64,000 bases of DNA from Frankia sp. AgB32. Its GTDB lineage: Bacteria; Actinomycetota; Actinomycetes; Frankiales; Frankiaceae. The stretch covers positions 1 to 64,000 of the forward strand of contig NZ_JALKFX010000017.1 of the NCBI RefSeq assembly GCF_023243045.1. Reading direction: 5' to 3'. The position numbers and the translations under genes were made by a program. Of the stretch, positions 10,801-60,014 are shown piece after piece (the stretch's first letter is position 1; each line of letters starts with the position of its first letter). The notes below the pieces were generated by a model. That model was given only the letters and a program-made list of their open reading frames with translations. It was not told where the DNA came from and did no database searches.

Positions 10801-12748
10801 CGAGAACCAGCAGGCCTTCGGCGAACGCGGGAGCGAGCCGGCGCTCCACCTCGCCCGGTGTCAGGCCGGTCGCCGCCGCGAGGAGGTCCGCCTCCACCCG
10901 GCCGGCCAGGCAGGCGAGCACGCTGAGGACCTCCGTGGTGGCCGGCGGCAGCGCCGCCAACCGGGTCGCCAGCAGCGCCGTCATGTCCACCGAGTCCAGC
11001 CGGGCGCGCAGCTCGGCCGGATCCCATCCCCACCCGCGCTCGTCGGCGGCGAGAAGCCGGTCGTGACGAAGCGTGTTGACCAGCTCGACCGTGTCGTACG
11101 GGTTGCCGTGGGTGGCGGGCGCGATCAGCCGGGCCAGCTCGGCCGCGGGCCGGGGATCCAGGTGCAGCAGGTCGGCCACCAGGCCCGACTGCCCCTCGGC
11201 TGCGAGGCCGCCCAGGCGCAGGTGACGCGGCCCGAGGGGCTGGGAACGCCAGCGGGCGAGCATCGGCGCCAGCGGATGGGTGGCGTCGACGTCGTCTTCC
11301 CGGTAGGCGGCGACGAGGAGCAGACCGTCGATCCGTTCCTCGCCGCCGAGGATCTGCTCGACGGTGCCCAGCGGGGTGCGGTCGGCCCACTGCAGGTCGT
11401 CGACGAAGAACACCACCGGTCGCTTCTGGCTCGCGACGGCGCGCAGCATCTCTACCGCGCCGCGCTGGATACGCCCGGGAGCCGTCATCGGATCGCCCGG
11501 TTCCGGGGTGACTTTCAGTAACGCCTGCAGTTCGGGCACGAGGGCCGAGACCAGGCCGGCGTTGGGCCCGAGCGAGGCGAGCAGCCGTTCGCGGGCCTCG
11601 GCCAGGTCACTGTCGGGTTCGGCCAGTAACGGGCGGATCAGCGCCCGGAACGCCTGCCGGACGCCGTCGTAGTCCAGGTCGCGGCGGTACTGGTCGAACT
11701 TGCCGGCGACGAACCAGCCATCGGCCCCGGCCACGATCGGCCGCAGCTCGTTGACCAGGGCGGTCTTGCCCACCCCGGGTGCGCCGCTGACGAGCAGCCC
11801 GGTGCACCGGCCGGCGAGCGCGTCGAGGAACGCCGTCCGCAGCTCGCCGATCTCCTCGTCGCGCCCGGCCAGCCGGGACGGCGCCATCGTCCGCGCCGGG
11901 ACGTCGTGCGTGCCGGGACGGGCCAGCGTCTCGCCGCGGCGCAGCACGGCGAGATCACGCAGCAGCCCGTCGGCGCTCTGGTACCGGTCGTCCGGTTCCT
12001 TCTCGAGCAGATGCATGATGATCGCCGACAGGCTGGCGGGCACCGCGGGATTCAGCTTCGTCGGCGCGACGGGCACCCGGGCGAGGTGATCGTGGATGAT
12101 GCGCAGCGGCTCGCCCGTGCCGAACGGGGGCGTTCCGGTCGCGAGCTCGTACAGGGTGGCCCCGAGCGCGTACAGGTCGGCGCGCTGATCCACCGGTCGA
12201 GCGGTCCGCCCGGTCTGCTCCGGCGCCAGGTACGCCAGCGTGCCGGCGACCTCGCTGGGATGGACGAACCCCGGCTGGACGGACACCAGGGTGGTCGCGA
12301 GCGCGAAGTCGATCAGGTGCGGTCTGCCGTGGTCACCGCGCATCACGATGTTCGCCGGGCTGATGTCGCGGTGCACCACCCCGCGCTGGTGGATCTCGGC
12401 CACCGTGCGCGCCAGTGACTCGGTCGTGGTGATCAGGGTGGCCTGGGCCAGGGGAGTCGTCCGTTCGGACAGCGCCGGTCCGCCGACATCGGCCAGCAGG
12501 ATCGCGTTGTCGTCCTGGTCGGGGCCGGCCGCCGGCTGTGCGACGCCCTCGACGCCGGTCAGGCGGTCGAGGATCTCGGCCTCATGGCGGGACCGTTGCG
12601 GTCCGCCGGCCGCCAGCGCCTCCTTGCGGATCACCGTGTGCGTCGAAAGGACCAGTCGGGTGACCCGGGACCGCGCCGACTCGTGCACCCGCTCGGTTCT
12701 CAATACCACCGCCGGATCGGGATCCGCCGCCCTGCCCTGTAAACCCAT
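7832..12748 (-). CDS. Ser/Thr kinase - AAA ATPase/TPR - GAF - GGDEF multidomain signalling protein
   Basis: A 1,638-residue sensor. An N-terminal protein-kinase domain (about 20-270) has Lys42, HRD at 126-128 and APE at 175-177, but the DFG position reads DFA (147-149). A predicted-ATPase domain has Walker A GAPGVGKT at 322-329 and a VVFFVDDLQWAD Walker B. A long helical, TPR-like region (about 650-1200) is followed by a GAF domain (about 1230-1400), a coiled segment near 1430-1455 and a GGDEF domain with intact GGEEF at 1538-1542. The inhibitory RxxD site five residues before GGEEF is absent (GAGH there). Related kinase-ATPase-GAF proteins usually end in a histidine kinase; here the output should be c-di-GMP synthesis. 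It appears to be transcribed alone. Confidence 0.9.
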   Translation of the reverse strand: MGLQGRAADPDPAVVLRTERVHESARSRVTRLVLSTHTVIRKEALAAGGPQRSRHEAEILDRLTGVEGVAQPAAGPDQDDNAILLADVGGPALSERTTPLAQATLITTTESLARTVAEIHQRGVVHRDISPANIVMRGDHGRPHLIDFALATTLVSVQPGFVHPSEVAGTLAYLAPEQTGRTARPVDQRADLYALGATLYELATGTPPFGTGEPLRIIHDHLARVPVAPTKLNPAVPASLSAIIMHLLEKEPDDRYQSADGLLRDLAVLRRGETLARPGTHDVPARTMAPSRLAGRDEEIGELRTAFLDALAGRCTGLLVSGAPGVGKTALVNELRPIVAGADGWFVAGKFDQYRRDLDYDGVRQAFRALIRPLLAEPDSDLAEARERLLASLGPNAGLVSALVPELQALLKVTPEPGDPMTAPGRIQRGAVEMLRAVASQKRPVVFFVDDLQWADRTPLGTVEQILGGEERIDGLLLVAAYREDDVDATHPLAPMLARWRSQPLGPRHLRLGGLAAEGQSGLVADLLHLDPRPAAELARLIAPATHGNPYDTVELVNTLRHDRLLAADERGWGWDPAELRARLDSVDMTALLATRLAALPPATTEVLSVLACLAGRVEADLLAAATGLTPGEVERRLAPAFAEGLLVLEPESHQSVRFHHDRTHEALLGALTAEQRRVLRLDLARRLARRPAYFAAAAEQYLHVTDAVLAPAERRVVAGLFRRAADESVVVANHALAERFLSAAVRLADRADPAQLIELYLRRHVALTNLGRLEEADGVFHDISRLGPPARQYTAAVTVQITSLNNRGLVDEAMRIGLDHLASLGLAIPAPADLGAEVDRALDELYRWSEETGAADDLARASDYDAVQTDITRVISSLSRAAYFGDLETMAWLSVRSMQLWAQRGPAPDLLVPAGLIPIVTETRRNDYHTGYRIMRRVLEVGRARGYTADTWRLEFLYTVGAGHRFGSLEDNVAAARRTLEGLIQTGDLQLACWTHYPLIQNLLDCAPSLDLVAAEVEDALTFSARTGNTHAADTFRAYRHLVRILRGECTETAADQATTLSLVADDPQATLSLHVTRAFEAAVLAQPEDLARHTEAVFPAPPTVETSYAMSVTRVLRALSLAGRARRVVDRAQHDALLTTLDELVSRVSELAADAPANFRHLLRLMEAERAWTVGDFRQAAYLFDAAQSESLALRRPWHRALILEHAARFYLAHGLRDVGGRLLAAARREYLAWGAHAKVNQLDWAYPALNDVASAAAPAASQTLAAGSIDLLGIVAASQALSSETSIDGLRARVVGILSEMTGATAVHLVLRDEEDDGWSVPSGSGEVISLGEASRRRLLPSSVVRYCERTQAAVVAADATGDDRFHRDPYFTDLDRCSVLAVPIVIRGAARAVLLLENRMIRDAFSVERLDGILMIAKQLAVSLDNAQLYASLENKVADRTHQLATANHRLELLSLTDPLTGLANRRHLEDFLSTAWQRAQRQGTPIALVMIDIDFFKRYNDHLGHAAGDRCLEKVAACLAENTGAGHLAARYGGEEFAVVMPGTDAEDARCRAERLRRAVADLAEPHPAVRTRIVTISVGFTSLTPTAEDHQQRLVDLADEALYRAKRHGRDQVEAATPKDDPGGATGNGLAP

Positions 12749-27342: not shown

Positions 27343-27555
27343 ATGGCCGCGCCGCGACACCAGCTGCTCACCGAGGAGATGGCCGGGGCCCTCGACGCCG
27401 AGCCGCGCTCGGCGTCACTGGTGCTCACCCGCCGCCACCTTGACCGGGACGGCCGGCTGGCCCGTGTCGGCATCCACACCCATCCCGCCGACCGCTACCG
27501 GATCTCGACCCGCGGATGCGTGCGCGACGCCGGCGCGACCTGGAGGAACCGTTGA
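27343..27555 (+). pseudogene. C-terminal (UTRA-like) remnant of a GntR-family regulator
   Basis: An open frame of about 70 codons from the ATG at 27343 reads LLTEEMAGALDAEPRSASL, then TRRHLDRDGRLARVGIHTHP and ADRYRIST. This matches the tail of the UTRA effector domain of HutC-type GntR regulators (typically xxRxxxDxDGRPVxxxxxxYxxDRYRF). The helix-turn-helix part is missing and no GntR-like N-terminus is found upstream in any frame. The stop overlaps the TTG start of the next gene as TTGA, so the truncated frame may still be translated and coupled. The family call is moderate. Confidence 0.45.
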
Positions 27556-29711
27556 CCATCGCCCTCACCGACGAGCATCGTGAGCTGGCCGGCGTCGCCG
27601 CGTCCTTCCTGGCCTCGGTCGGGGCGCGGGCGCAGACCCGCGTGCTTCTCGACGCGCCGCGGGACGCACCGCCCGCGTTCTGGGGCGCGCTGGCCGAGCT
27701 CGGCTGGCTCGGCCTGCACGTCGAGGAGGAGTACGGGGGCGCCGGGGCCGGGCTGGCGGAACTGGTGGTCGTGCTGGAGGCGCTCGGCCGCGCGGTGGCG
27801 CCGGGACCGTTCCTGCCGACCGTGATCGCGTCGGCGGTGATCGGCGCGTGCGCCGCGCCCGCCGAGCGCGCGGCGCTGCTGCCGGGACTCGTCGACGGCT
27901 CCGTCGTCGCGGGCGTCGGGTTCGGCGGGTCGGCCCAGGTCGCCGGCGAGGTCGTCACGGGTGACGCGGGGGTGGTGCTGGGGGCGCCGGGAGCCTCTAT
28001 CCTCGTCGTGCCCGCCGGCGCGGACATCCTCGTCGTGGCGCGCGGGGCCGTCGGCGTCGTCGTGTCGACCGAGCGCAACCTCGACCCGTCCCGCCCGTGC
28101 GGACGCGTCCGGTTCGAGGACGTCGCGCGCGCGGACGTGACGGTCCTGCCCGGCGCGGCGGCCACGGCACTCGCCCACGCCCGCACCCTGGCCGCGGCCG
28201 AGGCCGCCGGTGGCGCGCGGGACTGCGTCGACATGGCGGCCGGGTATGCGAAGCTGCGCCGGCAGTTCGGCCGCGTCATCGGCACGTTCGGACCGGTCAA
28301 GCACCACTGCGCCAACATGGCCGTCGCCGCCGAACTGGCGACCGCCGCCGGGTGGAACGCGGCGCGCGCCGCGGCGGAGGACGCCGAGCAGTTCGCGCTC
28401 GCCGGCGCGGCCGCCGCGGCGCTGGCGCTGCCCGCCTACCAGCGCAACGCGCAGCTCAACATCCAGGTCCACGGCGGCATCGGGTTCACCTGGGAGCACG
28501 ACGCCCACCTGCACCTGCGCCGGGCGGCCGTGCTCAGCGCGCTGGTCAGCCCGGCGAGCAGCGCGCAGGAGGTGACGACGCTGGCGGAGTCCGGGGTGAC
28601 CCGGCGCTACACCCTCAACCTGCCACCGGAGGCCGAGGTCCTCCGCGGCGAGATCCGCGACCTCGCCGCGGAGATCAGCGCCGTCGACCCCGCCGAGCAG
28701 CCGCATCGCCTGATAGACGCCGGGCTCGCCATGCCGCACTGGCCGCGCCCGTGGGGCCGCGGCGCGAAGGCCGTCGAACAGCTCGTCATCGACGAGGAAC
28801 TGGCCCGGGTGGGTCTGCGCCGACCACAGCTCGCCATCTCCGGCTGGATCCTCATGACGCTGATCCAGCACGGCACCGAGGAGCAGGTCGACCGGTGGAT
28901 CCGGCCGTCGCTGCACGGCCAGGTCACCTGGTGCCAGCTGTTCAGCGAACCGGACGCGGGCTCCGACGCGGCCGCCGTGCGCACCCGGGCGCACCGCGTC
29001 GAGGGCGGCTGGCTGGTCACCGGGCAGAAGGTCTGGACGACTGGCGCCCAGCACGCGCGGTTCGGCCTCGCGACGGTCCGGACCAGCCCCGACGCCCCCA
29101 AGCACGCCGGCATCTCCGCGATGGTCATCGACATGGCGGCGAAGGGGATCGAGGTCCGGCCGCTGCGCGAGGCGATCGGCAGCGCCCTGTTCAACGAGGT
29201 CTTCTTCGACGACGTGTTCGTGCCCGACAGCGACGTCGTCGGCGCGGTCGACGGCGGCTGGCGGGTCGCCCGCTCGACGATCGGCAACGAGCGGGTCACC
29301 ATCGGCGGCGGGGACGGGCTCGCGATCGGCATCGATCCGCTACGGGCCTGGCAGGGACGCGCGGTCGACCTGCCCGGCGGCCGCGTCCGCGTCGGCGAGC
29401 TGCTCGCCGAGGCGCAGGCGATCCGCGCGCTGAACCTGCGCCGGGCGCAGCGGGCGGTCCTCGGCGCCGAAGCGGGACCGGAGGGCAACATCACCAAGCT
29501 CGTCAGCGCCGAGCACGGCCAGCGTTCCCTCGACCTCGCGATGGACCTGCAGGGTCCCCAGGCCGCCCTCGCCGCCGGTGTGGCCGGTGAGATCAGCGGC
29601 CTGTACATCTTCGCCCGGCAGAACACGATCGCCGGCGGCACCTCCGAGATCTCCCGCAACCAGATCGGCGAACGCATCCTCGGCCTGCCCCGCGACCCGC
29701 TCACCGCCTGA
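27552..29711 (+). CDS. Double-length acyl-CoA dehydrogenase (two fused ACAD domains)
   Basis: Flavoenzyme of 719 residues made of two complete acyl-CoA dehydrogenase units. The first (about 1-355) has LGWLGLHVEEEYGGAGAG and HGGIGFTWEHDAHL. The second (about 370-719) has CQLFSEPDAGSDAA, GWLVTGQKVWTTGAQHA and a C-terminal IAGGTSEISRNQIGERIL. Fused or heterotetrameric ACADs of this kind (as in mycobacterial FadE34-type enzymes) often act on steroid or other bulky side-chain CoA esters. The start is TTG at 27552 behind GGAGG, overlapping the upstream stop. It would introduce the alpha-beta double bond ahead of the hydratase and dehydrogenase in the same operon. Confidence 0.88.
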   Translation: MTIALTDEHRELAGVAASFLASVGARAQTRVLLDAPRDAPPAFWGALAELGWLGLHVEEEYGGAGAGLAELVVVLEALGRAVAPGPFLPTVIASAVIGACAAPAERAALLPGLVDGSVVAGVGFGGSAQVAGEVVTGDAGVVLGAPGASILVVPAGADILVVARGAVGVVVSTERNLDPSRPCGRVRFEDVARADVTVLPGAAATALAHARTLAAAEAAGGARDCVDMAAGYAKLRRQFGRVIGTFGPVKHHCANMAVAAELATAAGWNAARAAAEDAEQFALAGAAAAALALPAYQRNAQLNIQVHGGIGFTWEHDAHLHLRRAAVLSALVSPASSAQEVTTLAESGVTRRYTLNLPPEAEVLRGEIRDLAAEISAVDPAEQPHRLIDAGLAMPHWPRPWGRGAKAVEQLVIDEELARVGLRRPQLAISGWILMTLIQHGTEEQVDRWIRPSLHGQVTWCQLFSEPDAGSDAAAVRTRAHRVEGGWLVTGQKVWTTGAQHARFGLATVRTSPDAPKHAGISAMVIDMAAKGIEVRPLREAIGSALFNEVFFDDVFVPDSDVVGAVDGGWRVARSTIGNERVTIGGGDGLAIGIDPLRAWQGRAVDLPGGRVRVGELLAEAQAIRALNLRRAQRAVLGAEAGPEGNITKLVSAEHGQRSLDLAMDLQGPQAALAAGVAGEISGLYIFARQNTIAGGTSEISRNQIGERILGLPRDPLTA

Positions 29712-30237
29712 GCACCGGCGGGTCAGGGCCGGATGGGTGTGGTCGCGCCGTGGGCTCGTAGCCAGCGACCATGCCGTCGGCCGCGGGGAGAGGAGGTGCC
29801 CGAAGCAAGGGCGGGCGATGTCCACGGCTTTCCTGCCCGCAGTGAGCCTGGACGCTCTCCGGAAGGGGGCGTGATCCGCCGGTGGCGGATCCATCTGAGC
29901 ATCGCCGCTGAACGCCGACCGGGCCATTTCACCCGCTCCCCGGTCAGAAATGACCGGCCGTGCGCCGGGCCGATGGTTTGGCGAGAAGCCGCGACCTGTG
30001 GTAATCGTCAAGCGGTGCGACAGCGAGCGCGCTGAACAGGGCGAGCGGGAGAACCCCAGGATGCCGGAGCGCCTGACGGGACCGGCGCGAAGAAGCGCCT
30101 CAGGTAGAGGGATGCACCGCCTCGCGGCAGCGTTCAGGGCCTCCTTGCCTTGAACATGGTTGGTCGGTAACGTGGCCCGGAACGTGCAGCAGGTCACTGC
30201 GGGTTGATCCGGACGACCGTCACCAGGAAGTAGGCAG
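29712..30237. other. Non-coding gap with no recognised gene
   Basis: About 525 bases with open frames on both strands but no product I can recognise and no convincing ribosome binding site. A weak stem (CCGGC/GCCGG, 8-base loop) just after 29711 might terminate the catabolic operon. Base composition drops towards the 3' end, where the lower-GC island begins. Confidence 0.4.
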
Positions 30238-30295
30238 ATTAAAGAGATCCGAGAAACTCCCCGACATCGAGGCGGCGCAGTTTTTTTCTCTTGAC

Positions 30296-30592
30296 ATGCG
30301 CGTCGGCCAGATCGTGCGGGTTGAGGATTTCCCCGAAGCCCGTCGGCCGGCCTGGAAGCTTTTCGTCGAGTTCGGGGATGGTATTGGTCTGCTTCCCACG
30401 AGTGCCCAGGTCACGAACTACTCGGCCGAGGAACTTCAAGGTCGGCTGGTGGTCGCCGCGATCAATCTGGGAACGAAGCAGGTCGGGAATTTCCTAAGTC
30501 AATGCCTGGTCCTCGGCGCAATTACCGATGACGGTTCGGTCGCTCTGCTGGAGGTTCCGAAAACGGCACGGCCGGGAGACCCGATCGCCTGA
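30296..30592 (+). CDS. csaA: CsaA-like tRNA-binding-domain protein (start uncertain)
   Basis: From the ATG at 30296 the product has 98 residues: MRVGQIVRVEDFPEARRPAW, then KLFVEFG, SAQVTNY, GRLVVAAINLGTKQVGNF and CLVLGA. This is the CsaA (EMAP/tRNA-binding OB-fold) pattern; CsaA is a small dimeric export-related chaperone of about 110 residues. Homology continues upstream in the same frame (AAQFFSLD before MRVG), but no ATG or GTG exists there for over 100 bases and a run of seven T lies at 30281-30287. Either the protein starts late and lacks its first strand, or the 5' end is damaged. It is convergent with the HDO gene. Confidence 0.65.
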   Translation: MRVGQIVRVEDFPEARRPAWKLFVEFGDGIGLLPTSAQVTNYSAEELQGRLVVAAINLGTKQVGNFLSQCLVLGAITDDGSVALLEVPKTARPGDPIA

Positions 30593-30753
30593 CCAGGGGC
30601 CCGGCGGTCCAGGCCGCTGCGCGTCCTGGGAACTCGTTGTTCGCCAGCCGTGCACCACCTGGCATCATCGGCCGGCCCGATGGCTGGCCCGGCACTCCTG
30701 GGCCAGCCGCCGGCCGCTGCGGCGCGACCATCCGAAAACGGGCGGATGGTCCG

Positions 30754-31236
30754 CTACGAGAGCAGTGCCGCGCACCATGTAACGTGGCGCCGGTAGGAGG
30801 CAAGCAGTGTCTCCGAAAACCCGGAGAGGTCGCTCGTCACAATTTTGTCGAACATGCTCGCCGTCGTCTCGACGTGGTATTTCTCCGCGGGGTCGGCACC
30901 GCCGACGTGCGCCGAGAAGTACCGCAGCTCCTCCGGCGAGCAGTCGAAGACCCTCGCCACCGAGGCCCACAGTGCGGCTATCATCCTCTCCGCGTGTGCC
31001 TCAAACGAAATCATCCAGGCGCAGCGAGTGGCGCCGTTCTTGCTCGACAGGCCCCGGTACAGTTCCAGGAGGTATTCGCGGGTGGGAGCGCTGAACTTCG
31101 GCGGTATCTCCTGTCCGAGGAGCCTGGAGATATCCTCCCGCAACATGTTGGCGTGAAATCTCTGTCTCTGCAGGATCGAGGGCAGGCCCGCGTTCCCCTG
31201 GTTGAGAACGTGATGCTCATGGTTGGATACCTCCAT
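30754..31236 (-). CDS. Short heme-oxygenase-like (HDO/PqqC-TenA-fold) protein, possibly 5'-truncated
   Basis: Helical protein of 160 residues. FHANMLREDISRLLG, APTREYLLELYRG, SFEAHAERM and YFSAHVGGADPAEKYHVE follow the order of motifs in heme-oxygenase-like diiron oxidases (a histidine after helix 1, a Glu near the centre, then His...Asp...His). Such enzymes include alkene-forming UndA and the lyase BesC and usually have 210-260 residues. Here the first helix is mostly missing and the expected first Glu ligand is not clear. GGAGG lies 9 bases before an ATG at about 31220 in a different frame, so a start-proximal frameshift is possible. It is downstream of the MFS exporter on the same strand and likely in the FAAL operon. 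Confidence 0.5.
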   Translation of the reverse strand: MEVSNHEHHVLNQGNAGLPSILQRQRFHANMLREDISRLLGQEIPPKFSAPTREYLLELYRGLSSKNGATRCAWMISFEAHAERMIAALWASVARVFDCSPEELRYFSAHVGGADPAEKYHVETTASMFDKIVTSDLSGFSETLLASYRRHVTWCAALLS

Positions 31237-31350
31237 CCAGATGGTTCAGGGCGCTCCGTAGAAATCCTGCCGGACGGGCCGCCGCTGGCCTGCGCCAGTC
31301 CTTACCCCAGCGAGACAGGAATCGCTGTCACCGCCGGGCAATTCCGGCCC

Positions 31351-32976
31351 CTAACCGCGGGGCGTCGGCCCCGTTTCTGGGACCATGACAGCCGGCTGGG
31401 CGGCACGGGCCTCCCGCACGTCACGCACCGAGGCAAATCCGACCAGGGCCGCCGCGCCAGCCGCAGCCGCAGCCAGCCAGAGAATGTGATGCAGGCCGTC
31501 CACCGTGGCCTGTCGGGCTGTTGACGCGACGGCATCCTTGAACGGCAGGGGGACGGCGCCCGCGACTCTGGGCCCGGAACCCGACGCGACCGCGGCGGCC
31601 AGCCGGTCTGTCTGACTATCGGTAAACGGCAGCCCCCGCAGTCCGACAGTCACCCGCGCGGTGATCACGTGTGCGTAGAGAGCGCCGAGAATCGCCACAC
31701 CGGAGGCGACACCGAGCTGGCGCAGGGCCATGACCGTGCCGCCGGCCAGCCCGGCCCGGCTCCGCTCGCTTCCTACCAGCGCGACCTGATTGAGGATCGT
31801 CGTGCTGGAACCAAGCCCCACGCCAGCGACAACGAAGCCGGGAACAAGCACGGTCCAGCTCGATCCCACGTCCAGCCGTGCCAGAAGCATCAGCCCGGCG
31901 GACGTGAAGGCGGCGGTGAGGCCCACCATCCACCGGGTGGCCACGCGAGTCACCAGCGGGACGGCGAGCAGCGCAGCGCAAAAACCGCTGAGGCTGAACG
32001 GCAGGAACCGCAGACCGGTCTGGAAAGGAGTGAGACCCAGAACGTTCTGCGCGTACAGGGACAGGTAGGTGGTGGACGCCACCAACGTTCCCTGAATGGT
32101 GAACGCGACCAGCGCGTTGGCGCTGTAAGTGATGTTCCTGAAGAGCCCCAGGTCGACCATCGGGTCCGCCTTGTGGAACTCGACCACGGCAAAGAGGATC
32201 AGGAGGACCGCGCCGCTCCCCAGTAGGCCCAGGATGCGCCCGGAGCCCCACCCGTCATTGTTGCCTCGAATGAGGGCGAGGACCAGGGCGAAAAGCCCGC
32301 CGGCAAGCAGCACGGTCCCGGGCACGTCGATGACGCTCTGCCTGCTACGAGCGGAAGGCACCAGTCGGCCGCGTGCGAGCACGAGCGTGGCGAGTCCGAT
32401 CGGAACGTTGATGAAGAAGATCCACCGCCAGCCGAAGGAATCAGTGAGGGCGCCACCGATCAACGGCCCGAGCGCGATCGCGCTCCCGGTCACCGCACCG
32501 AAGATCCCGACTGCCAGATTGCGGCTCCGGCCGCCGGGGTACGCATCCGCGATCATCGGCAGGCCGATGCCGAACAGCATGGCACCACCCACACCCTGGA
32601 GGGCACGGGCCACGTTCAGCAGGCCAGCCGTGTTGGTCAGGCCGCAGGTGAGCGATCCGACCGTGAAGATGCCCGTGCCCAGAAAAAACAGGGTGCGGCG
32701 GCCCACCCGGTCGCCGAGGGTCGCCGCGGTGAGAAGGAGGGCGGCAAGCGGCACCGAATATGCGTCGACCATCCACTGCAGATCACTCAGGTCGGCGTTC
32801 AGGCTACGTTGGATGTCAGGGATCGCCACGGCGACGACGGTCAGGTCGAGCACGAGCATGAACGTGATGACGCAGACCAGGGTCAGTGTCCAGGTCCGTC
32901 GCGTCACCAGTTCCGTGTCGCCGGAGAACAAGGCCCCCGCCGCTGCGGTCGGGTCCGTCTGTTGTGGGTCAGCCAA
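31351..32976 (-). CDS. MFS exporter, DHA2 (EmrB/QacA-like) family
   Basis: Membrane transporter of 541 residues with about 14 hydrophobic helices. Motif A is GDRVGRRTLF after helix 2; GALTDSFGWRWIFFINVP is the hallmark segment before helix 6 of the DHA2 group. These proton-driven antiporters export drugs and natural products. The ATG at 32976 overlaps the FAAL-ACP-C stop by 8 bases, so the two are co-translated. Export of the product of that synthetase, or self-protection, is the natural inference. Confidence 0.9.
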   Translation of the reverse strand: MADPQQTDPTAAAGALFSGDTELVTRRTWTLTLVCVITFMLVLDLTVVAVAIPDIQRSLNADLSDLQWMVDAYSVPLAALLLTAATLGDRVGRRTLFFLGTGIFTVGSLTCGLTNTAGLLNVARALQGVGGAMLFGIGLPMIADAYPGGRSRNLAVGIFGAVTGSAIALGPLIGGALTDSFGWRWIFFINVPIGLATLVLARGRLVPSARSRQSVIDVPGTVLLAGGLFALVLALIRGNNDGWGSGRILGLLGSGAVLLILFAVVEFHKADPMVDLGLFRNITYSANALVAFTIQGTLVASTTYLSLYAQNVLGLTPFQTGLRFLPFSLSGFCAALLAVPLVTRVATRWMVGLTAAFTSAGLMLLARLDVGSSWTVLVPGFVVAGVGLGSSTTILNQVALVGSERSRAGLAGGTVMALRQLGVASGVAILGALYAHVITARVTVGLRGLPFTDSQTDRLAAAVASGSGPRVAGAVPLPFKDAVASTARQATVDGLHHILWLAAAAAGAAALVGFASVRDVREARAAQPAVMVPETGPTPRG

Positions 32977-35900
32977 TGTCGCCTGCCTTCAGCAGACCAT
33001 TGCGCAGCACGTCGAGGTAGTCCTCTACAAGGGAGGTGATCGAGGCCGCGTCGAACAGGGCCGCCCGGTACCGGCACTCGACCGCGATCCCGGAGCCGAA
33101 CTGGTACGCATAGAACATCATGTGGAAGCGAACGTCGACCGGAAGGTCACGGGCGAACGGTGCCGTGCCCACGGGCAACGGCATGTCCCCGCCCACCTCC
33201 ATGGTGGTGAAGAAGGTGTTCGTGAACGGGAAGAGATGCGGCTGCCGGTCGACACCGATCTCCTGTGCCATCCGGTCCAGTTGCCAGCGCTGATGTACCA
33301 CGGCCCCGAGCAGTTTCAGCTGTACCTGGGCGGCCAGGTCCGCGAACACCAGCTCCGGCTTGACGCGGAGCCTTATCGGCACCAGGTTGATAAACATGCC
33401 AACCATGTCCCTGATGTCGGATCGATCGCGGCCGGCCAACGGCGTCCCGATGATCAGGTCCTCGTTGCCGGTGTATCCACTGACCGCGGCGAAGAAGGCT
33501 GCGTACAGCACCGCAGAAATACCGACCCGCTGGTTCGCCACCGCGGCCCGAACCGCGTCCACCAGATCGGCGGGCAGGGCTGCGACGACGCTGGCGCCCG
33601 CGGAACTGCCGTACCTGGCGATCGTGTCGTCGACCGGCATCGTGACCGGCAGTTCTCCGCTGAGCTCGCTCCGCCAGTACCGTCGGGACTCGTCCAGCAG
33701 CCCGGATGCCTCCAGCCGGTTCATCCAGGCCGAGTAGTCGCGGTAGCGCAGCCCGTCCCGGTCTCGCCCGCGAGGGCCTGCCGGGGACGTCGGATCCGCC
33801 ATCGGAGCCTGATCCGAGGCGGCGAACTCGACGTCGATCTGCTTCGCGACCGCCAGGAAGGACCAGCCATCGGCGATCATGTGGTGGGCGGTCAACAGGA
33901 GCAGCGAGGACTGTGCGTCCGTGCGCACGAGCGTTGCCCGCGTGAGTGGACCGTTCGCCAGATCGAAGACGTGGCCGGCGGCCTCGCGCTCGATCCTGGC
34001 GATGGCGGTGCCGCGTTCCTCGGCAGTCCGGTCGCGTAGATCGTGGACATCGATCGGTACGTCGCAGTCCGGCCTGATGACCTGACGAAGCTCACCGTCC
34101 AGCTCGGGAAAGACGGTCCGCAGCGACTCATGCCGTAGCCAGACGGCCCGGCTCGCCGCGGCGAGCCGTTCCACGTCGACCTCGCCAAGCTGGAGACGCT
34201 GGCTGATGTTGCCCCAGGTCCGCTCCCGGTCGACCAGGTAGTCCCCAGCCCAGCGGCGCTGGATCGAGGAGAGCGGATAGCTTTCCGCGTCCCCGACCCG
34301 CGCGATCGGACTGCGTAGCACGGCAACGGCCGTAGCCGAGCGCGCAGGCCCATCCGCATCCGGCGACTGGGTGATGGCCTCGGTAAGTTCGCGTACCGAC
34401 GGATGGGAATAGAGCAGGCTCGCCTCGAACGAGACACCGAGTTCCGCGGCTATGGCGGTTGCCTCCACGGCGCGAAGCGAGTCGCCGCCGACGGCGAAGA
34501 AGTCGACATCGGGACCGATCGTATGCAGCCCGAGCGCGGCGGCCAGGGCCTGGGAGACCTTGTCCGAAATGGTGCCCAGAGGTTCGGACGGGACCTGTGC
34601 CGCAGGAGTATGCGCCGCGGCGCCGTCCGCCACATCGCTGCGTGCGATGACCGACAGATCGTCGTGACGATAGGCTGTCGCGGTCACCGACCGACGAATC
34701 TTCCCGCTACTCGTCTTGGGAATGCTTCCGCGCTGCAGAAGTACGACGTCATGCACGACGACGCCGAACTTGCGAGAAATAGCGGCGCGTATGTTGCGTG
34801 AGATCTCCGCGATGGCCGACGCATCAGCTGGGGAGCCACATTCCGCCGCGACGACGAGCTGCTCCTGCTCGTCGGTCGTCACGCCGAACGCTGCCACACA
34901 GCCTGGCCGGACCCGGGAGTCTGCCGACCAGGCCGCACTCTCCAGGTCCTGCGGGAAATAGTTCCGGCCACGAATCACGATCATGTCTTTGAGGCGGCCC
35001 GCGATATATAGTTCTCCCGCCTCGACCAGGCCGAGGTCTCCCGTCCGCAGGAAGTTTCGATCGTGTCCCGGCAGGGTGGCTCGGAACTCGAGCTCCGTCT
35101 CCCGCGGCCGATTCCAGTAGCCCTGCGCGACCCCCGGTCCGGAAATCCAGATCTCTCCGATCTCACCGTCCGGCACTGCCGCTACGCGCTGCGGATCGAC
35201 AATGCGCACGTGGGTGTCGGCGATCTCGCGTCCCACGGACACCAGCGCACTCGTCGGTGTATCCGGCGCGGTGATTCTCCGGCGGGCTGCGCCTGGGGCC
35301 GGCGCGGAGACCAGCAGCGTGGCCTCGGCAAGGCCGTACACGGGCCGAAAGCTGTCCGGACTGAATCCGCACGGACCGAAGGTTGCCTCGAAGTCGGCCA
35401 GTGTGGCGGTGCGGACCGGCTCAGCTCCGTTGAGCGCGACCTTCCACCGGGATAGATCGAGATTCCGCGTGCGGGTCGCGTCTGCCTTTCGGGTACACAG
35501 CCCGTAGGCGAAGTCCGGAGCAACACTGTAGGTAGCGCGAAAATGGGAGATGGCCTCGAGCCAGCGTAGTGGATCCCGCAGGAAGTCGGCCGGTGAAATC
35601 AGGATGGTCTCGACTCCGGCGCAGATCGGCGTCAGAATCGCCCCGATCAGTCCCATGTCATGATATGGCGGCAGCCATGACACGAGACGCGACGCGGCTT
35701 CGACGCTGGTCAGCTCGGCGATCGCACCAATATTGGCGAGCAGGTTGGCGTGGCTCACCATCACGCCCCGCGGATCACCGGTAGACCCGGACGTGTACTG
35801 CAGGAAGGCGAGTGATTCGCAGCCGATGCCGTCGGGTGACACGAATTCTTCCGGGCTTGCATCGACGGTGTCGGTGGCGAGCCAGGAGCCGGGCGGAACA

Positions 35901-36355
35901 TCGCCCTCGAGGGCAAGGCCAACCCGACATAGGTCAAGAATATCGCTGCTGGTCAGAAACACCGTCGGCTGCGCGTCGCGCACTATCCCTAGAAGCGTCG
36001 AGAGCGATCTGCCGGCATCCGGCGGATAGGCCGGAACGGCGACTACTCCGGCGTACAAGCAGCCAAAATACGCTGCTATGTACTGGGGCCCGGGAGCGTA
36101 AAGGAGCAGCGCCCGGTCCCCAGGCTGGGTGCGCCGGCCGAGCGCTGCGGCGATCGTCCTGGCCTGCGTGTCCAGCGCGGCATAGGTGACCACGTCACCG
36201 GCTGAGCCGTCCTCGAACCGGGTCGTCCCCGTCAGGAACCGGAACGCGTACTGCTCCGGCTGGGACTGCGCCTGGGCGCGCAGGGCGTCACCCAGCGTCG
36301 CAACGCTGGGCAGTCCGAGCACAGACGCGCCGGTCTTCGGAACAAACGTGGTCAC
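32969..36355 (-). CDS. FAAL - acyl carrier protein - condensation domain protein
   Basis: Lipid-initiating synthetase of 1,128 residues. The fatty acyl-AMP ligase (about 1-575) has YTSGSTGDPRG at 187-197, WLPPYHDMGLIG, NGAEPV, YGLAEATL, GYWNRP and the distal lysine in PKTSSGK (K552). WLPPYHDMGL and the RGRNYFPQDLE region are typical of FAALs, not acyl-CoA ligases. The carrier domain has GGDSLRAVE with Ser626. The condensation domain (about 690-1120) has an intact HHMIADG at 824-830. There is no adenylation domain for an amino acid and no thioesterase. It should load a fatty acid on its own carrier and transfer it to a free or separately carried amine. MFS and HDO genes follow; the broken oxygenase gene precedes it. 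Confidence 0.9.
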   Translation of the reverse strand: MTTFVPKTGASVLGLPSVATLGDALRAQAQSQPEQYAFRFLTGTTRFEDGSAGDVVTYAALDTQARTIAAALGRRTQPGDRALLLYAPGPQYIAAYFGCLYAGVVAVPAYPPDAGRSLSTLLGIVRDAQPTVFLTSSDILDLCRVGLALEGDVPPGSWLATDTVDASPEEFVSPDGIGCESLAFLQYTSGSTGDPRGVMVSHANLLANIGAIAELTSVEAASRLVSWLPPYHDMGLIGAILTPICAGVETILISPADFLRDPLRWLEAISHFRATYSVAPDFAYGLCTRKADATRTRNLDLSRWKVALNGAEPVRTATLADFEATFGPCGFSPDSFRPVYGLAEATLLVSAPAPGAARRRITAPDTPTSALVSVGREIADTHVRIVDPQRVAAVPDGEIGEIWISGPGVAQGYWNRPRETELEFRATLPGHDRNFLRTGDLGLVEAGELYIAGRLKDMIVIRGRNYFPQDLESAAWSADSRVRPGCVAAFGVTTDEQEQLVVAAECGSPADASAIAEISRNIRAAISRKFGVVVHDVVLLQRGSIPKTSSGKIRRSVTATAYRHDDLSVIARSDVADGAAAHTPAAQVPSEPLGTISDKVSQALAAALGLHTIGPDVDFFAVGGDSLRAVEATAIAAELGVSFEASLLYSHPSVRELTEAITQSPDADGPARSATAVAVLRSPIARVGDAESYPLSSIQRRWAGDYLVDRERTWGNISQRLQLGEVDVERLAAASRAVWLRHESLRTVFPELDGELRQVIRPDCDVPIDVHDLRDRTAEERGTAIARIEREAAGHVFDLANGPLTRATLVRTDAQSSLLLLTAHHMIADGWSFLAVAKQIDVEFAASDQAPMADPTSPAGPRGRDRDGLRYRDYSAWMNRLEASGLLDESRRYWRSELSGELPVTMPVDDTIARYGSSAGASVVAALPADLVDAVRAAVANQRVGISAVLYAAFFAAVSGYTGNEDLIIGTPLAGRDRSDIRDMVGMFINLVPIRLRVKPELVFADLAAQVQLKLLGAVVHQRWQLDRMAQEIGVDRQPHLFPFTNTFFTTMEVGGDMPLPVGTAPFARDLPVDVRFHMMFYAYQFGSGIAVECRYRAALFDAASITSLVEDYLDVLRNGLLKAGDIG

Positions 36356-36484
36356 AGATCCTTCTCTCTGAGCTCACTACCACCGAGATCACGCGCTAGA
36401 TGGTGGGCCGTCTGCCGCGCAGGTCCGGTATTCACCTCGAAGGACACCGACGGACCGCCGCGGCCGTCGACCCGGGCTGCCCGG

Positions 36485-37108
36485 TCAGCCGTTGACCAGA
36501 TATTCTGTCCCCGAGATGAAATGTTCACCGTGGCGGGCCAGGTTATCGACGTTGACCGACTTTATGATCCATCTCTGGGCGAGGGACGCCGGGTTCCCGA
36601 TGGAAGCGATCTCCTTCGCATGAATCGCGTAGTTGTTGAAGGCCGCAACGAAGTCCCCCGGGCCGATGAACACCCGCTCCTTGACCTCGTGCAGGGTCTT
36701 CTTCAGCTTCTGGCTGAGCTCCTCGGCTGCCGGAGTGAGGCCGGAGGTCCGGTTCTCGAAGTAGCGGATGTCGTTCTCGCCGGTAAGGATCGGGTGTGGC
36801 TCTGCCTCACCGAGCTGACGAGCGCCGCCGTAGACCGTGAGATCGTCGAAAGGGGTGTGGAAGGAAACCTCGCGCAGGCGGTCGAGTTCTTCGTCCGAAA
36901 ATGCGGTCATAATGTCGGCGTTCCGCGCGAAGGTCGTGAACACCTGGTTGGCGGGATCGCTCCGCATTCCTAGCATGTAGACATGGTCAGGCCGGACGAA
37001 ATGATTTGCCAGGTCCTTGTGGAAGTAGATCTCGTTGAGTGCCTTCTGGGACTGGGAGTTGAAGAGCTCCCGCTTGGGGTAGATATCCTGGAAGACATCA
37101 GGCCGGGG
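36485..37108 (-). pseudogene. 5'-truncated clavaminate-synthase-like Fe(II)/2-oxoglutarate oxygenase
   Basis: An ATG-started frame exists from 36976 (163 residues), but homology extends in frame to 37108, where a TGA lies at 37109-37111. That upstream part contains the iron-binding HxD motif in IYFHKDLANHF, so the ATG-started product would miss two metal ligands. The C-terminal part shows the distal His in FNNYAIHAKE and the 2OG-binding Arg in AQRWIIKSVNVDN. No ATG, GTG or TTG occurs between the TGA and the HxD motif. Family members are about 320-350 residues and hydroxylate free amino acids such as Arg or Asn. About 110 N-terminal residues are lost. The IS630 element begins 115 bases away. 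Confidence 0.7.
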
Positions 37109-37133
37109 TCATCCCTGTTTACCGGGGTGGCAG

Positions 37134-37211
37134 TTACCCGGGGGAGCTCCCGCCGCACCCGAAATGGCTGGCTGCGGCAAAGTCGGCCGTGACGGAATCG
37201 GCGGAATTCAT
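37134..37211 (-). CDS. 25-codon open frame between IS630 and the oxygenase remnant (doubtful)
   Basis: ATG at 37211 to TAA at 37134 encodes a 25-residue peptide whose C-terminal part reads AAASHFGCGGSSPG, with one Cys and a Gly/Ser-rich tail. It has no strong ribosome binding site because the insertion sequence ends only 12 bases upstream. It could be a small precursor peptide or simply chance in debris. I list it because it sits on the same strand just ahead of the oxygenase and FAAL genes. Confidence 0.15.
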   Translation of the reverse strand: MNSADSVTADFAAASHFGCGGSSPG

Positions 37212-37225
37212 GATTGCCGAGTCTA

Positions 37226-38352
37226 GTGTCCTGAGTCGTAGATTCGTGCGCAGATAGAATGGGCTGGTGCCTGGCCCGAGCGCGGAACCCATCGAGTTGT
37301 CGGCTGCCGAGCGTGCGGTGCTGGAAGGGTGGGCCCGGCGGCGCAAGACCGCGCAGGCGCTGGCGTTGCGCTCGCGGATAGTGCTGGCCTGCGCGGACGG
37401 CGGGACGAACTCGGGGATAGCGACCGAGCTCGGGATCACCCGGGGGACGGTTGCGAAGTGGCGGAGCCGGTTCACGGTCGACCGGCTGGAGGGCCTGTCG
37501 GACGAGGCGCGTCCAGGGGCGCCGCGGAAGGTCACCGACGTGCAGGTCGAGGCTGTGATCGCGAGGACGCTGGAGGAGAAGCCGCCGAACGGCGACACGC
37601 ACTGGTCGTCGCGGTCGATGGCGAGGGTCAGCGGGTTGTCGCAGTCGACGGTGTCGCGGATGTGGCGGGCGTTCGGGTTGAAACCGCACCTGGTCGAGAC
37701 GTGGAAGCTGTCCACCGACCCGCTGTTCGTGGACAAGGTCCGTGACGTGGTCGGGGTCTACCTCGACCCGCCGGAGAAGGCGATCGTGCTCTGCGTCGAC
37801 GAAAAATCCCAGGTGCAGGCACTGGACCGCACCGCACCGGTGCTGCCGATGATGCCGGGTACGCCGGAGCGGATGACCCACGACTACGTCCGGCATGGCA
37901 CGACCAGCCTGTTCGCCGCCCTCGACCCGACGTCGGGGTCGGTGATCGCGCAGACCTACCGGCGGCACCGCCACCAGGAGTTCCTGCGTTTCCTCAAGCT
38001 GATCGATTCCTCGGTGCCGAAGGGCTACGACCTTCACCTGGTCCTGGACAACTACGCCACCCACAAGACCCCGGCGGTGAAGAAGTGGCTGTTGCGCCAC
38101 CCCCGCTTCCACCTGCACTTCACTCCGACGTCGGCGTCGTGGATGAACCTGGTCGAGCGCTGGTTCGGGGAGCTGACCAACCGCAAGCTGCGCCGATCCA
38201 CGCACCGGTCGGTCGTCGAACTCGAAGCGGACATCCGTAAATGGATCAACTCCTGGAACAAGGACCCGAAGCCGTTCGTCTGGGCCAAGACCGCCGACGA
38301 GATCCTTGAAACCCTCGCCGCGTACTGCCAGCGAATCAGCGACTCAGGACAC
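37226..38352 (+). mobile_element. IS630-family insertion sequence, intact
   Basis: The 1,127-base element is bounded by perfect 13-base inverted repeats: GTGTCCTGAGTCG at 37226-37238 and CGACTCAGGACAC at 38340-38352. TA flanks both ends (37224-37225 and 38353-38354), the target duplication typical of IS630/Tc1 elements. It carries one transposase gene with an apparently intact catalytic triad. The last codon of the transposase is completed outside the element. A degraded copy of its right end lies at 58572-58742, so the family has moved in this genome more than once. Confidence 0.9.
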
Positions 38353-38355
38353 TAG
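37267..38355 (+). CDS. IS630-family transposase
   Basis: DDE transposase of 362 residues. The N-terminal helix-turn-helix region (GIATELGITRGTVAKWRSRF) binds the ends. The catalytic acids are in LCVDEKSQ, LVLDNYATHK and SWMNLVERWFGEL (D, D, E). The start is GTG at 37267, 29 bases inside the left repeat. The TAG stop at 38353-38355 is made of the duplicated target TA plus the next G, so termination depends on the insertion site. The frame is intact and the element may be active. Confidence 0.92.
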   Translation: MPGPSAEPIELSAAERAVLEGWARRRKTAQALALRSRIVLACADGGTNSGIATELGITRGTVAKWRSRFTVDRLEGLSDEARPGAPRKVTDVQVEAVIARTLEEKPPNGDTHWSSRSMARVSGLSQSTVSRMWRAFGLKPHLVETWKLSTDPLFVDKVRDVVGVYLDPPEKAIVLCVDEKSQVQALDRTAPVLPMMPGTPERMTHDYVRHGTTSLFAALDPTSGSVIAQTYRRHRHQEFLRFLKLIDSSVPKGYDLHLVLDNYATHKTPAVKKWLLRHPRFHLHFTPTSASWMNLVERWFGELTNRKLRRSTHRSVVELEADIRKWINSWNKDPKPFVWAKTADEILETLAAYCQRISDSGH

Positions 38356-38634
38356 GTGAGGGGATCGAGTGCGACAAGGAGTTTCATGATCGGCGGTCTT
38401 GGCAGTCGCACTTGGCGTCACGCTCTGTGTCCGTTGATTGCTTTACAGTCAAGGAAGGTCGGCGGTAATCGCCGGTGACGGGTGCCTGCGGCTACGTCGC
38501 AGCGTGATCCTGGGCAGGGCGGCCCGGCCGTTCGTTCGTGCAATCCCAGCCCAAAGAGATGGTATTTGCCCGCGGAACTAATCACAGCCAGTAATCATCC
38601 GCGCATGTCCGTGAGGGTCGTCACATCTGGCTGC
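38356..38634. other. Gap after the IS element, no recognised gene
   Basis: These 279 bases contain no product I recognise. The minus strand has an ATG reading MKLLVALDPLT that runs into a TAG at the IS boundary; removing the IS and one TA leaves the same stop, so it is not a gene split by the insertion. The missing N-terminus of the Fe/2OG oxygenase is not found here either. Confidence 0.4.
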
Positions 38635-58116: not shown

Positions 58117-58571
58117 TCAGCCGTGCCGACCGCCGAATCCACGCGGGCCATCAGACGCTCGGTGGTGCGTGAGACGAGTGCCATCCGCTTCTGCCGGGCC
58201 CACGCCCAGGGCCGATCCGAGCCTGGGCAGTCCGAGATCCTTCGACGGCAGTCCTTCGGAGACGAGGAAGCGTTCGACAGCCGCCGGCCTCCCGATGACC
58301 GCCAGGCCGTCGCCGTCGCTGATCAGCTCGATGTCGTCATCGTCGCCGGTCCATCCGTGGGCCTGCGGGCCGGTGGGATCCTCGGCCAGGGCCAGGGCCA
58401 GGGCCCGGGGGAGGTACGCGATGCCGTCGATCGGTCCGATTCGCTGGGCGACGCCGTCACCGGCGATGATGGTGGCGGGTGCGGTGCGGGCGACGGTGGT
58501 GCGCAGCTGCGGGTCGGCGAGCCGGTAGTTGATGGGGACGAACGGCCGGCCGGTGATCGCTGCGGCATCCC
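58117..58571 (-). pseudogene. Chimeric pseudogene: acyl-CoA synthetase N-terminal piece fused to another gene start
   Basis: One open minus-strand frame first reads AAITGRPFVPINYRLADPQL and TVARTAPATIIAGDGVAQRI, the N-terminal region of an AMP-binding acyl-CoA synthetase, up to GDDDDI, where the synthetase would continue into its TSGTTG core. Instead it continues ELISDGDGLAVIGRPAAVER then FLVSEGLPSKDLGLPRLGSA, which looks like the N-terminus of a conserved actinobacterial protein of unknown function, and stops at 58117. The junction preserves the frame. The 5' end is cut by the IS630 remnant at 58572. No start codon fits. Confidence 0.5.
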
Positions 58572-58742
58572 AGGTTCCACCTGCGCTTCACCCCGACCTC
58601 GTCCTCGTCGAGGCCGACATCCGTAAGTGGATCAACGCCTGGAACAAGGACCCCAGGCCGTTCGTCTGGGCCAGGACCGCCGACGAGATCCTCGAGACCC
58701 TCGGCGCCTACTGCCAACGAATTAACGACTCAGGACACTGGT
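58572..58742 (+). mobile_element. Degraded right end of an IS630 element
   Basis: The plus strand encodes FHLRFTPTS joined to VEADIRKWINAWNKDPRPFV, then WARTADEILETLGAYCQRIN and DSGH. This matches the last part of the intact transposase at 37267-38355 with an internal deletion of about 100 bases. The 13-base right repeat CGACTCAGGACAC is exact at 58726-58738. The flanking TA of the intact copy is TG here, so the stop codon is lost and no left end exists nearby. It is dead. Confidence 0.85.
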
Positions 58743-58802
58743 GCCTTGGCCGACGGTGCTGCCGCACAGGGCCTGTTTCTAGTGCCAGGACCGAACGAGT
58801 GT

Positions 58803-60014
58803 TCAGGGTGCGATCTCCTTGCCGCAGAGCTGCGGGCCCATCACGTTGTACCCGGTGCCTGTGGGATTGACCTGAACGAACGTGTAGCAGGTCACCGGCC
58901 GGCCGAGGTTGGTCTTGAAGTTGACCGGGCTGATCAGACCGCCGGCGTCATAGTTGGTGACAGACCGAAGGCCATTGATGAAGCTCTGCCGGGTGGGGCA
59001 GTCGCCAGCGGCCTCCAGGCCGCGGACGAACGTGTCCGCCACGATGTAGGACAGGACGGCAATGTCCTGGTTGGGCTGGGTGATCTGGGGTGCGTAGCGT
59101 GCCATCGCGGCGGAGTAGGCGTCGATCGCGGGGCCACCGGCCTCGAAGGGAAGGTGGAAGACCGGCGTAATGATGCCGGCCACCTGGGGACCGTAGGTTC
59201 GCAGTAGTTGCTGGTCATAGCCGCCGGAGGAAATCATGACCTTTGGATTCTTTCCGGCGGAACGCAGCAGGTTCAGCAGCTGGACGGTCTCAGGGTTCCC
59301 CATCATGCTGACGACGGTGTCCGGACCAAGGGCGATCACCTTCGCCGCGAGCCCCTGGATGCTGTCGGTGCTCGTGTTGAAGTTCAACGTGTTGAGGATG
59401 GGAATGCCGGCGGCTTCCAGGCTCTGGTAGTACTGCGCTGCCGGATTGGTAAGGCCCGCGGAGAGCGCCGGCTGAACGATGACGGCTCGGGTGCCGCCCT
59501 GCGACTTCACGAACTGCCCGTAGGTGTCCACGGCCGCGGAGCTGTCGTAGACGAACGAGAACATGTTCCGGTACTGCGACCAGATCTTCTCGATTGCCAG
59601 ACCGGAGACGGGTACTCCTTGGTCAGCCAGGTACTGCGCGCTTCCGCTCGCGGTGAGTGACGTTTCGAGGAGGCCAAAAACGTGTTGCTGCTCGACAAGA
59701 TCTCGGGCGCCCACGTAGTTCGCCACCGTCGATCCCCGATCGTCTCGCCACTCCAGGGTGATTTTACGACCGTGGACGCCGCCCGCCGCATTCGTGACTC
59801 CGAAGCGAGCGTCGATGGCGGAACGGACGGAGAGGAATCCGGAGGCGAGTGGCCCGCTGTCGGGAAGGAGCAGGCCGGCCTTGATTTCGTTCTGCGTGAC
59901 TCCTGGGCTGGAGCAGGCGGGCGTGGCCGGGGTGTCCGAACTGGAGCAACCGACCGCGGCCACCAGGAGCAACACTGCGGACACTAGGCGTAAAGCATGG
60001 TGACGTGAAGACAC
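58803..60014 (-). CDS. Branched-chain amino acid-type ABC substrate-binding lipoprotein (orphan)
   Basis: Secreted binding protein of 403 residues of the LivK/Peripla_BP_6 family. A short basic start and hydrophobic stretch end in a lipobox LLVAAVGC (Cys23). KAGLLLPDSGPLASGFLSVR, NAAGGVHGRKITLEWRDDRG and VQLLNLLRSAGKNPKVMISS are family hallmarks. GTG at 60014 follows GGGGAG. No LivHMGF permease or ATPase genes are adjacent, so it either works with a distant transporter or acts as a sensor component. In actinomycetes such proteins often bind aromatic or steroid-like compounds rather than amino acids. Confidence 0.87.
   Translation of the reverse strand: MSSRHHALRLVSAVLLLVAAVGCSSSDTPATPACSSPGVTQNEIKAGLLLPDSGPLASGFLSVRSAIDARFGVTNAAGGVHGRKITLEWRDDRGSTVANYVGARDLVEQQHVFGLLETSLTASGSAQYLADQGVPVSGLAIEKIWSQYRNMFSFVYDSSAAVDTYGQFVKSQGGTRAVIVQPALSAGLTNPAAQYYQSLEAAGIPILNTLNFNTSTDSIQGLAAKVIALGPDTVVSMMGNPETVQLLNLLRSAGKNPKVMISSGGYDQQLLRTYGPQVAGIITPVFHLPFEAGGPAIDAYSAAMARYAPQITQPNQDIAVLSYIVADTFVRGLEAAGDCPTRQSFINGLRSVTNYDAGGLISPVNFKTNLGRPVTCYTFVQVNPTGTGYNVMGPQLCGKEIAP

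Follow-up and report, generated by a model that had tools for sequence, protein, structure and literature searches.

What can a bacterium make with one protein that joins a fatty acyl-AMP ligase (FAAL), a carrier domain and a condensation (C) domain, when no amino acid adenylation domain or thioesterase accompanies it? The question is raised by a locus of Frankia sp. AgB32, found in a stretch of 64,000 nucleotides (contig NZ_JALKFX010000017.1, positions 1 to 64,000) that we refer to as the window. A sequence-only reading had proposed that this protein forms an undescribed lipo-amide pathway with an exporter and two iron-oxygenase-like proteins, the expected product being a fatty acyl amide.

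The locus and the synthetase

The four minus-strand genes of that proposal lie where it had placed them, in a region that also contains an insertion sequence:

30001-38500, no strand: low-GC island with 60-70% GC; flanks at ~74% (left) and 70-73% (right)
30754-31236, minus strand: putative heme-oxygenase-like (HDO) protein, C-terminal remnant with the first ~100 residues missing (homology to L011:14765-15556)
31351-32976, minus strand: predicted MFS exporter of the DHA2/EmrB kind, 541 aa (MFS_1, E 7e-46)
32969-36355, minus strand: FAAL-ACP-condensation protein, 1128 aa, intact (Pfam domains)
36485-37102, minus strand: clavaminate-synthase-like Fe(II)/2OG oxygenase, C-terminal remnant, residues 136-339 of 339 (homology to intact relatives)
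37223-38355, plus strand: IS630-family insertion sequence with 31-nt inverted ends, transposase 37267-38355 (NF033545, E 7e-81)

The FAAL-ACP-condensation protein, hereafter the synthetase, starts at a GTG codon preceded by AGAAGGA. Pfam places AMP-binding (residues 26-414), PP-binding (599-661) and Condensation (691-1119) domains on this one polypeptide. Ser626 in GGDSL is the carrier serine, and the HHMIADG motif occupies residues 824-830, as first read. Among solved structures, FAAL-type entries and FadD32, FadD23 and FadD28 head the list of those nearest to the first domain, and the best NCBIfam ligase models are also FAALs, with scores under their cut-offs. The first domain is accordingly classed by its sequence neighbours, which are FAALs rather than acyl-CoA ligases, as a FAAL.

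The MFS gene starts within the last codons of the synthetase gene, confirming the overlap that had been described, and its product scores just under the cut-off of the efflux_EmrB model. The absence of an amino acid adenylation domain beside the synthetase was also borne out, the 64-kb window containing no adenylation-type open reading frame besides the synthetase itself. On contig C88 the synthetase query has a single other match, an acyl-CoA-synthetase-like gene of 552 aa at a distance of 44 kb.

Proposed reaction

On balance we lean towards the synthetase being a self-contained fatty acyl amide synthase, in which the FAAL-loaded chain is passed by the C domain to a small soluble amine and the product is exported by the MFS protein. 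The FAAL domain would convert a free fatty acid to the acyl-AMP and then load it onto the adjacent carrier at Ser626. From the carrier the C domain would transfer the acyl chain to the amine, for which the likeliest candidate is a free amino acid, unmodified or after hydroxylation by the 2OG oxygenase encoded next to the synthetase. The N-acyl amide would be released and then exported by the MFS protein; the synthetase would need neither an A-PCP nor a thioesterase. We infer all four of the soluble acceptor, its identity, the order of hydroxylation and acylation, and the export.

Relatives of the synthetase

Relatives were found by a scan of genome contigs with the synthetase; the counts given for them are lower bounds. 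Among the matches listed there are two kinds, a few at 46-63% identity and many at 31-38%. The first kind are stand-alone FAAL-ACP-C proteins of ~1120-1180 aa without A or TE domains, and the second are mostly the N-terminal part of longer FAAL-ACP-C lipopeptide synthetases. At least four stand-alone proteins are known, from the window, Candidatus Frankia meridionalis (locus L022), a Streptomycetaceae MAG (L013) and Nocardia transvalensis (L025). The F. meridionalis copy, which has an assembly gap of Ns inside, is 63% identical to the window synthetase over the FAAL-ACP part, and the Nocardia copy is 46% identical. The family occurs in at least two of 394 genomes of the class and in at least one of 150 Nocardia genomes. 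Our best reading of these comparisons is that FAAL-ACP-C proteins would constitute a rare actinobacterial family, present in Frankiaceae, Nocardia and a Streptomycetaceae MAG, and not an NRPS fragment.

Homologues confined to larger NRPS clusters would have spoken against the amide pathway; the closest relatives among the matches listed are stand-alone and have no A-domain gene nearby. In the 13-24 kb around the relatives no adenylation-type open reading frame was found besides the synthetases. This bears on a different explanation, in which the synthetase is a split NRPS initiation module, its C domain joining the acyl chain to a PCP-held amino acid and the A-PCP being encoded elsewhere and acting in trans. 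The next-closest proteins, at 31-38%, are mostly the N-termini of longer lipopeptide synthetases among the matches listed. The genome also has NRPS fragments, multimodular pieces among them, on further small contigs (C33, C46 and C51), which makes a partner in trans possible. Against a split module stand the lack of an A-domain gene in the vicinity of all four synthetases and the changes in the C domain described below; we regard such a module as unlikely.

The condensation domain

In a tree of 137 C domains those of the four stand-alone FAAL-ACP-C proteins are monophyletic (support 0.995), and a fifth stand-alone protein, from a Paucimonas MAG, joins this clade (support 0.997). The HHMIxDG motif is kept in the C domains of all four relatives. 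The earlier description of an active-looking C domain thus holds in the alignment, where the catalytic motif HHxxxDG is intact and not disrupted.

The clade differs from other C domains at positions that are otherwise nearly fixed. Residues 1025-1026 are QL where other C domains have P (99%) and F (89%), residue 1078 is H where D is found elsewhere (90%), changing KFDL to RFH, and residue 714 is W in place of Y (94%); these frequencies refer to a comparison set drawn from the same search, which is an unbalanced sample of C-domain classes. These changes hit positions that hardly vary among the set's PCP-dependent C domains, which weighs against the split module. They are compatible with an acceptor other than a PCP-bound amino acid, a fit that falls short of proof.

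VibH and SgcC5 are stand-alone enzymes of the C fold that use a soluble acceptor and a carrier-bound acyl donor. Unlike the C domain of the synthetase they are not fused to a FAAL. Compared with solved structures, the synthetase C domain matches VibH at an E-value of only 0.014 and SgcC5 at ~1e-20. The latter match (1.3e-20, to structure 4znm, which we take to be SgcC5) would suit a C domain whose soluble acceptor is no amino acid, for example a diol as in SgcC5, and which forms an ester or amide with it, or one that uses an aromatic amine from a neighbouring pathway. The Nocardia transvalensis copy (L025:2131-9911) lies beside a class II DAHP synthase, a DeoC/LacD aldolase and a class V aminotransferase, genes that are a possible source of a different amine and would fit an aromatic one. 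The 2OG neighbour resembles hydroxylases of free amino acids, which points away from such acceptors, and we hold this explanation to be improbable.

The Fe/2OG oxygenase

The reading in which the synthetase makes an acyl amide of a free amino acid draws on the gene upstream. The genome has no match to the 2OG oxygenase other than the remnant in the window. With homology over 36488-37102, the remnant keeps the C-terminal 204 of 339 residues and lacks the N-terminal 135. It is 73% identical to an intact 339-aa protein from Candidatus Frankia meridionalis (L022:8162-9181) and 67% identical to another from the Streptomycetaceae MAG (L013:7709-8728). The HxD...H facial triad is conserved in both intact proteins and the Arg is also present. 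An intact relative had been predicted to exist elsewhere, and in both of these genomes it was found directly upstream of the synthetase. The 2OG gene occupies this position in three of the four loci among the matches listed (window, L022 and L013); in the Nocardia transvalensis genome, which has the synthetase, no 2OG relative was found. Because the intact gene adjoins the synthetase in two genomes other than that of the window, the sequences identify the 2OG gene and the synthetase as a conserved pair, a statement based on three genomes, of which one is a MAG.

By sequence the 2OG protein shares its Fe/2OG fold family with L-lysine 3-hydroxylase, clavaminate synthase, GntD and VioC, although it scores far under every equivalog cut-off, and its structure model was of too low confidence to be useful (pLDDT 40). 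The intact relatives have HxD where clavaminate synthase and AsnO have HxE. Most of these four named enzymes act on free amino acids. This relationship therefore suggests that the amine may be a hydroxylated amino acid. A second 2OG dioxygenase, of the PF10014 family that includes isoleucine dioxygenase, lies upstream in the Streptomycetaceae MAG (L013:6286-6972), hinting at a doubly hydroxylated amino acid there.

More distant relatives of the 2OG oxygenase (30-35%) are found in a recurring cluster at four loci (L107, L108, L109 and L110). Named from sequence, this cluster contains isopropylmalate/homocitrate-synthase-like, LeuC-like and FAD/NAD(P)-type proteins, LysR and ArsR-like regulators and an MFS protein; its Frankiaceae copies also hold a GAPDH gene, possibly for self-resistance.

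The MFS exporter is less constant than the 2OG gene. Its overlap with the synthetase stop recurs in the Streptomycetaceae MAG as an ATGA overlap (12186-12189), giving two of the four loci among the matches listed, and the F. meridionalis locus has no MFS gene after the synthetase. The window and L013 exporters are only 36% identical.

The HDO-like gene

The HDO-like remnant is 50% identical to residues ~102-252 of an intact 264-aa protein (L011:14765-15556) from another genome of the same genus (G011). Against PF14518 the remnant reaches E 0.0052 and 17.1 bits, below the cut-off of 28.9. The intact homologue matched no Pfam or NCBIfam oxygenase model, and a profile-profile comparison with PF14518 relatives was not significant. 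A possible ligand order is E, then H, D and H, with a D-to-H spacing longer than in PF14518 relatives. The fragment was modelled as all-helical, at a confidence too low to support a fold (pLDDT 50). The heme-oxygenase-like identity of this gene is therefore putative, and of the two iron-oxygenase folds first assigned to the locus only the Fe/2OG fold is secure.

We considered the HDO-like gene as a conserved pathway partner and rejected it. Among the matches listed it adjoins the synthetase at one of the four loci, that of the window, and the one intact homologue found lies in a different, unrelated cluster without a FAAL-ACP-C gene. The co-occurrence expected of both oxygenase genes thus holds for the Fe/2OG gene and fails for the HDO-like gene. 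The proposed fatty acyl amide pathway is partly supported, by the stand-alone synthetase family without A or TE domains, its intact C-domain motif, its 2OG neighbour and the exporter overlap shared with the Streptomycetaceae MAG, but not by the HDO-like gene. The G011 cluster (L011:14765-15556 to L012:10859) comprises a tryptophan-halogenase-like flavoprotein (PF04820) and radical SAM, PhyH-like, ATP-grasp-like and P450-like proteins, and is followed by ThrRS and CsaA.

Genomic setting and decay of the window copy

Both oxygenase genes had been described as truncated. Since each remnant matches only part of an intact homologue, both truncations are real. In the window a stop codon lies just ahead of the start of 2OG homology, and the first usable ATG (position 36976, open reading frame 36485-36976) lies past the HxD iron ligands, so that a protein started there has no HxD and a working 2OG oxygenase is unlikely. 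The remaining frame is open and conserved (dN/dS ~0.12 against F. meridionalis), and for this reason the loss of the gene was probably recent.

The IS630-family element has inverted repeats (37223-37253 and 38325-38355) that are 84% identical. It lies ~120 bp upstream of the start of 2OG homology, and the truncation point is therefore not the end of the element itself. The C-terminal part of the open reading frame at 58529-58870 resembles the end of the transposase at 37267-38355 and is probably the remnant of a second copy.

Next to the island is a gene (30296-30592) for a CsaA-type tRNA-binding protein, the only copy found in the genome; in the Streptomycetaceae MAG such a gene (L013:7237-7578) immediately precedes the 2OG gene. 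CsaA is present in seven of 35 Frankiaceae genomes, and it was left out of the pathway because its contexts there are mostly unrelated. Further to the left, positions 27516-29711 encode 731 aa with two acyl-CoA dehydrogenase units in a single frame.

The window copy of the cluster is decaying: the synthetase and exporter are open, but the N-terminal parts of the 2OG and HDO-like genes are gone. This copy can therefore be expected to yield no more than an unmodified product. It is quite possible, if short of probable, that the region has gone further and is a non-functional relic of horizontal gain and later damage, with the synthetase and exporter unexpressed or useless. The truncation of two of the four genes, the upstream IS630 element and the foreign GC content would all agree with a relic; the fully open frames of 1128 and 541 aa speak against it. 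So does a dN/dS of ~0.30 for the synthetase against the F. meridionalis copy, a value averaged over the whole divergence, to which a recent loss is invisible. A relic would concern the window copy only and is compatible with amide synthesis by the family.

Comparison with known systems

In gut bacteria a fatty acid ligase, an ACP and a C domain make amides from soluble amines (PMC13142362). In Coprococcus eutactus the stand-alone C domain of the OaaA-OaaACP-OaaC system joins the acyl-ACP to free aminovaleric acid (PMC13142362). Like the synthetase, this system combines an adenylating enzyme, a carrier and a C domain without an acceptor PCP, A domain or TE, and the expected product is likewise a fatty acyl amide of a small amine. 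OaaA, OaaACP and OaaC are discrete free-standing proteins, whereas the synthetase has all three domains in one polypeptide; it is also actinobacterial, with a 2OG oxygenase gene and an MFS gene as neighbours. C domains of the OaaC type have (D/H)HxxxDS/A more commonly than HHxxxDG, with glycine in only 17% (PMC13142362), so the HHxxxDG of the synthetase is not in itself a pointer to a soluble acceptor. In contrast, all four members of the synthetase clade have HHMIxDG. Because it is fused and has the canonical motif, the synthetase was not placed in the OaaC-type family.

The lipopeptide initiation modules of cyanobacteria and myxobacteria (FAAL-ACP-C-A-PCP) have the same first three domains in the same order and are 31-38% identical over nearly the whole length. 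Unlike these modules, the synthetase ends just past the C domain with no A-PCP directly downstream, and its clade is altered at the PF and KFDL positions.

The literature was searched for a described cluster of the same make-up and none was found. The novelty of principle claimed for the pathway was overstated, amide formation by a ligase, an ACP and a C domain being known from gut bacteria (PMC13142362). The principle is known; new are the fusion of the three domains, the altered residues of the C domain and the pairing with a 2OG oxygenase.

Implications

We tentatively suggest that the C domains of FAAL-ACP-C proteins could be a new subtype, recognisable by QL in place of PF and RFH in place of KFD, in which the product is released directly onto a free hydroxylated amino acid. 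Frankiaceae and other Actinobacteria would then have a route to secreted N-acyl hydroxyamino acids that needs one protein. The C-domain changes would provide a sequence mark separating such synthetases from lipopeptide initiation modules. The intact three-gene unit of the Streptomycetaceae MAG, together with the intact F. meridionalis 2OG gene, is small enough for direct testing. If the proposal is true, soil and plant-associated actinomycetes would need a single polypeptide to produce secreted fatty acyl amides, compounds of a class known from gut bacteria as signals.
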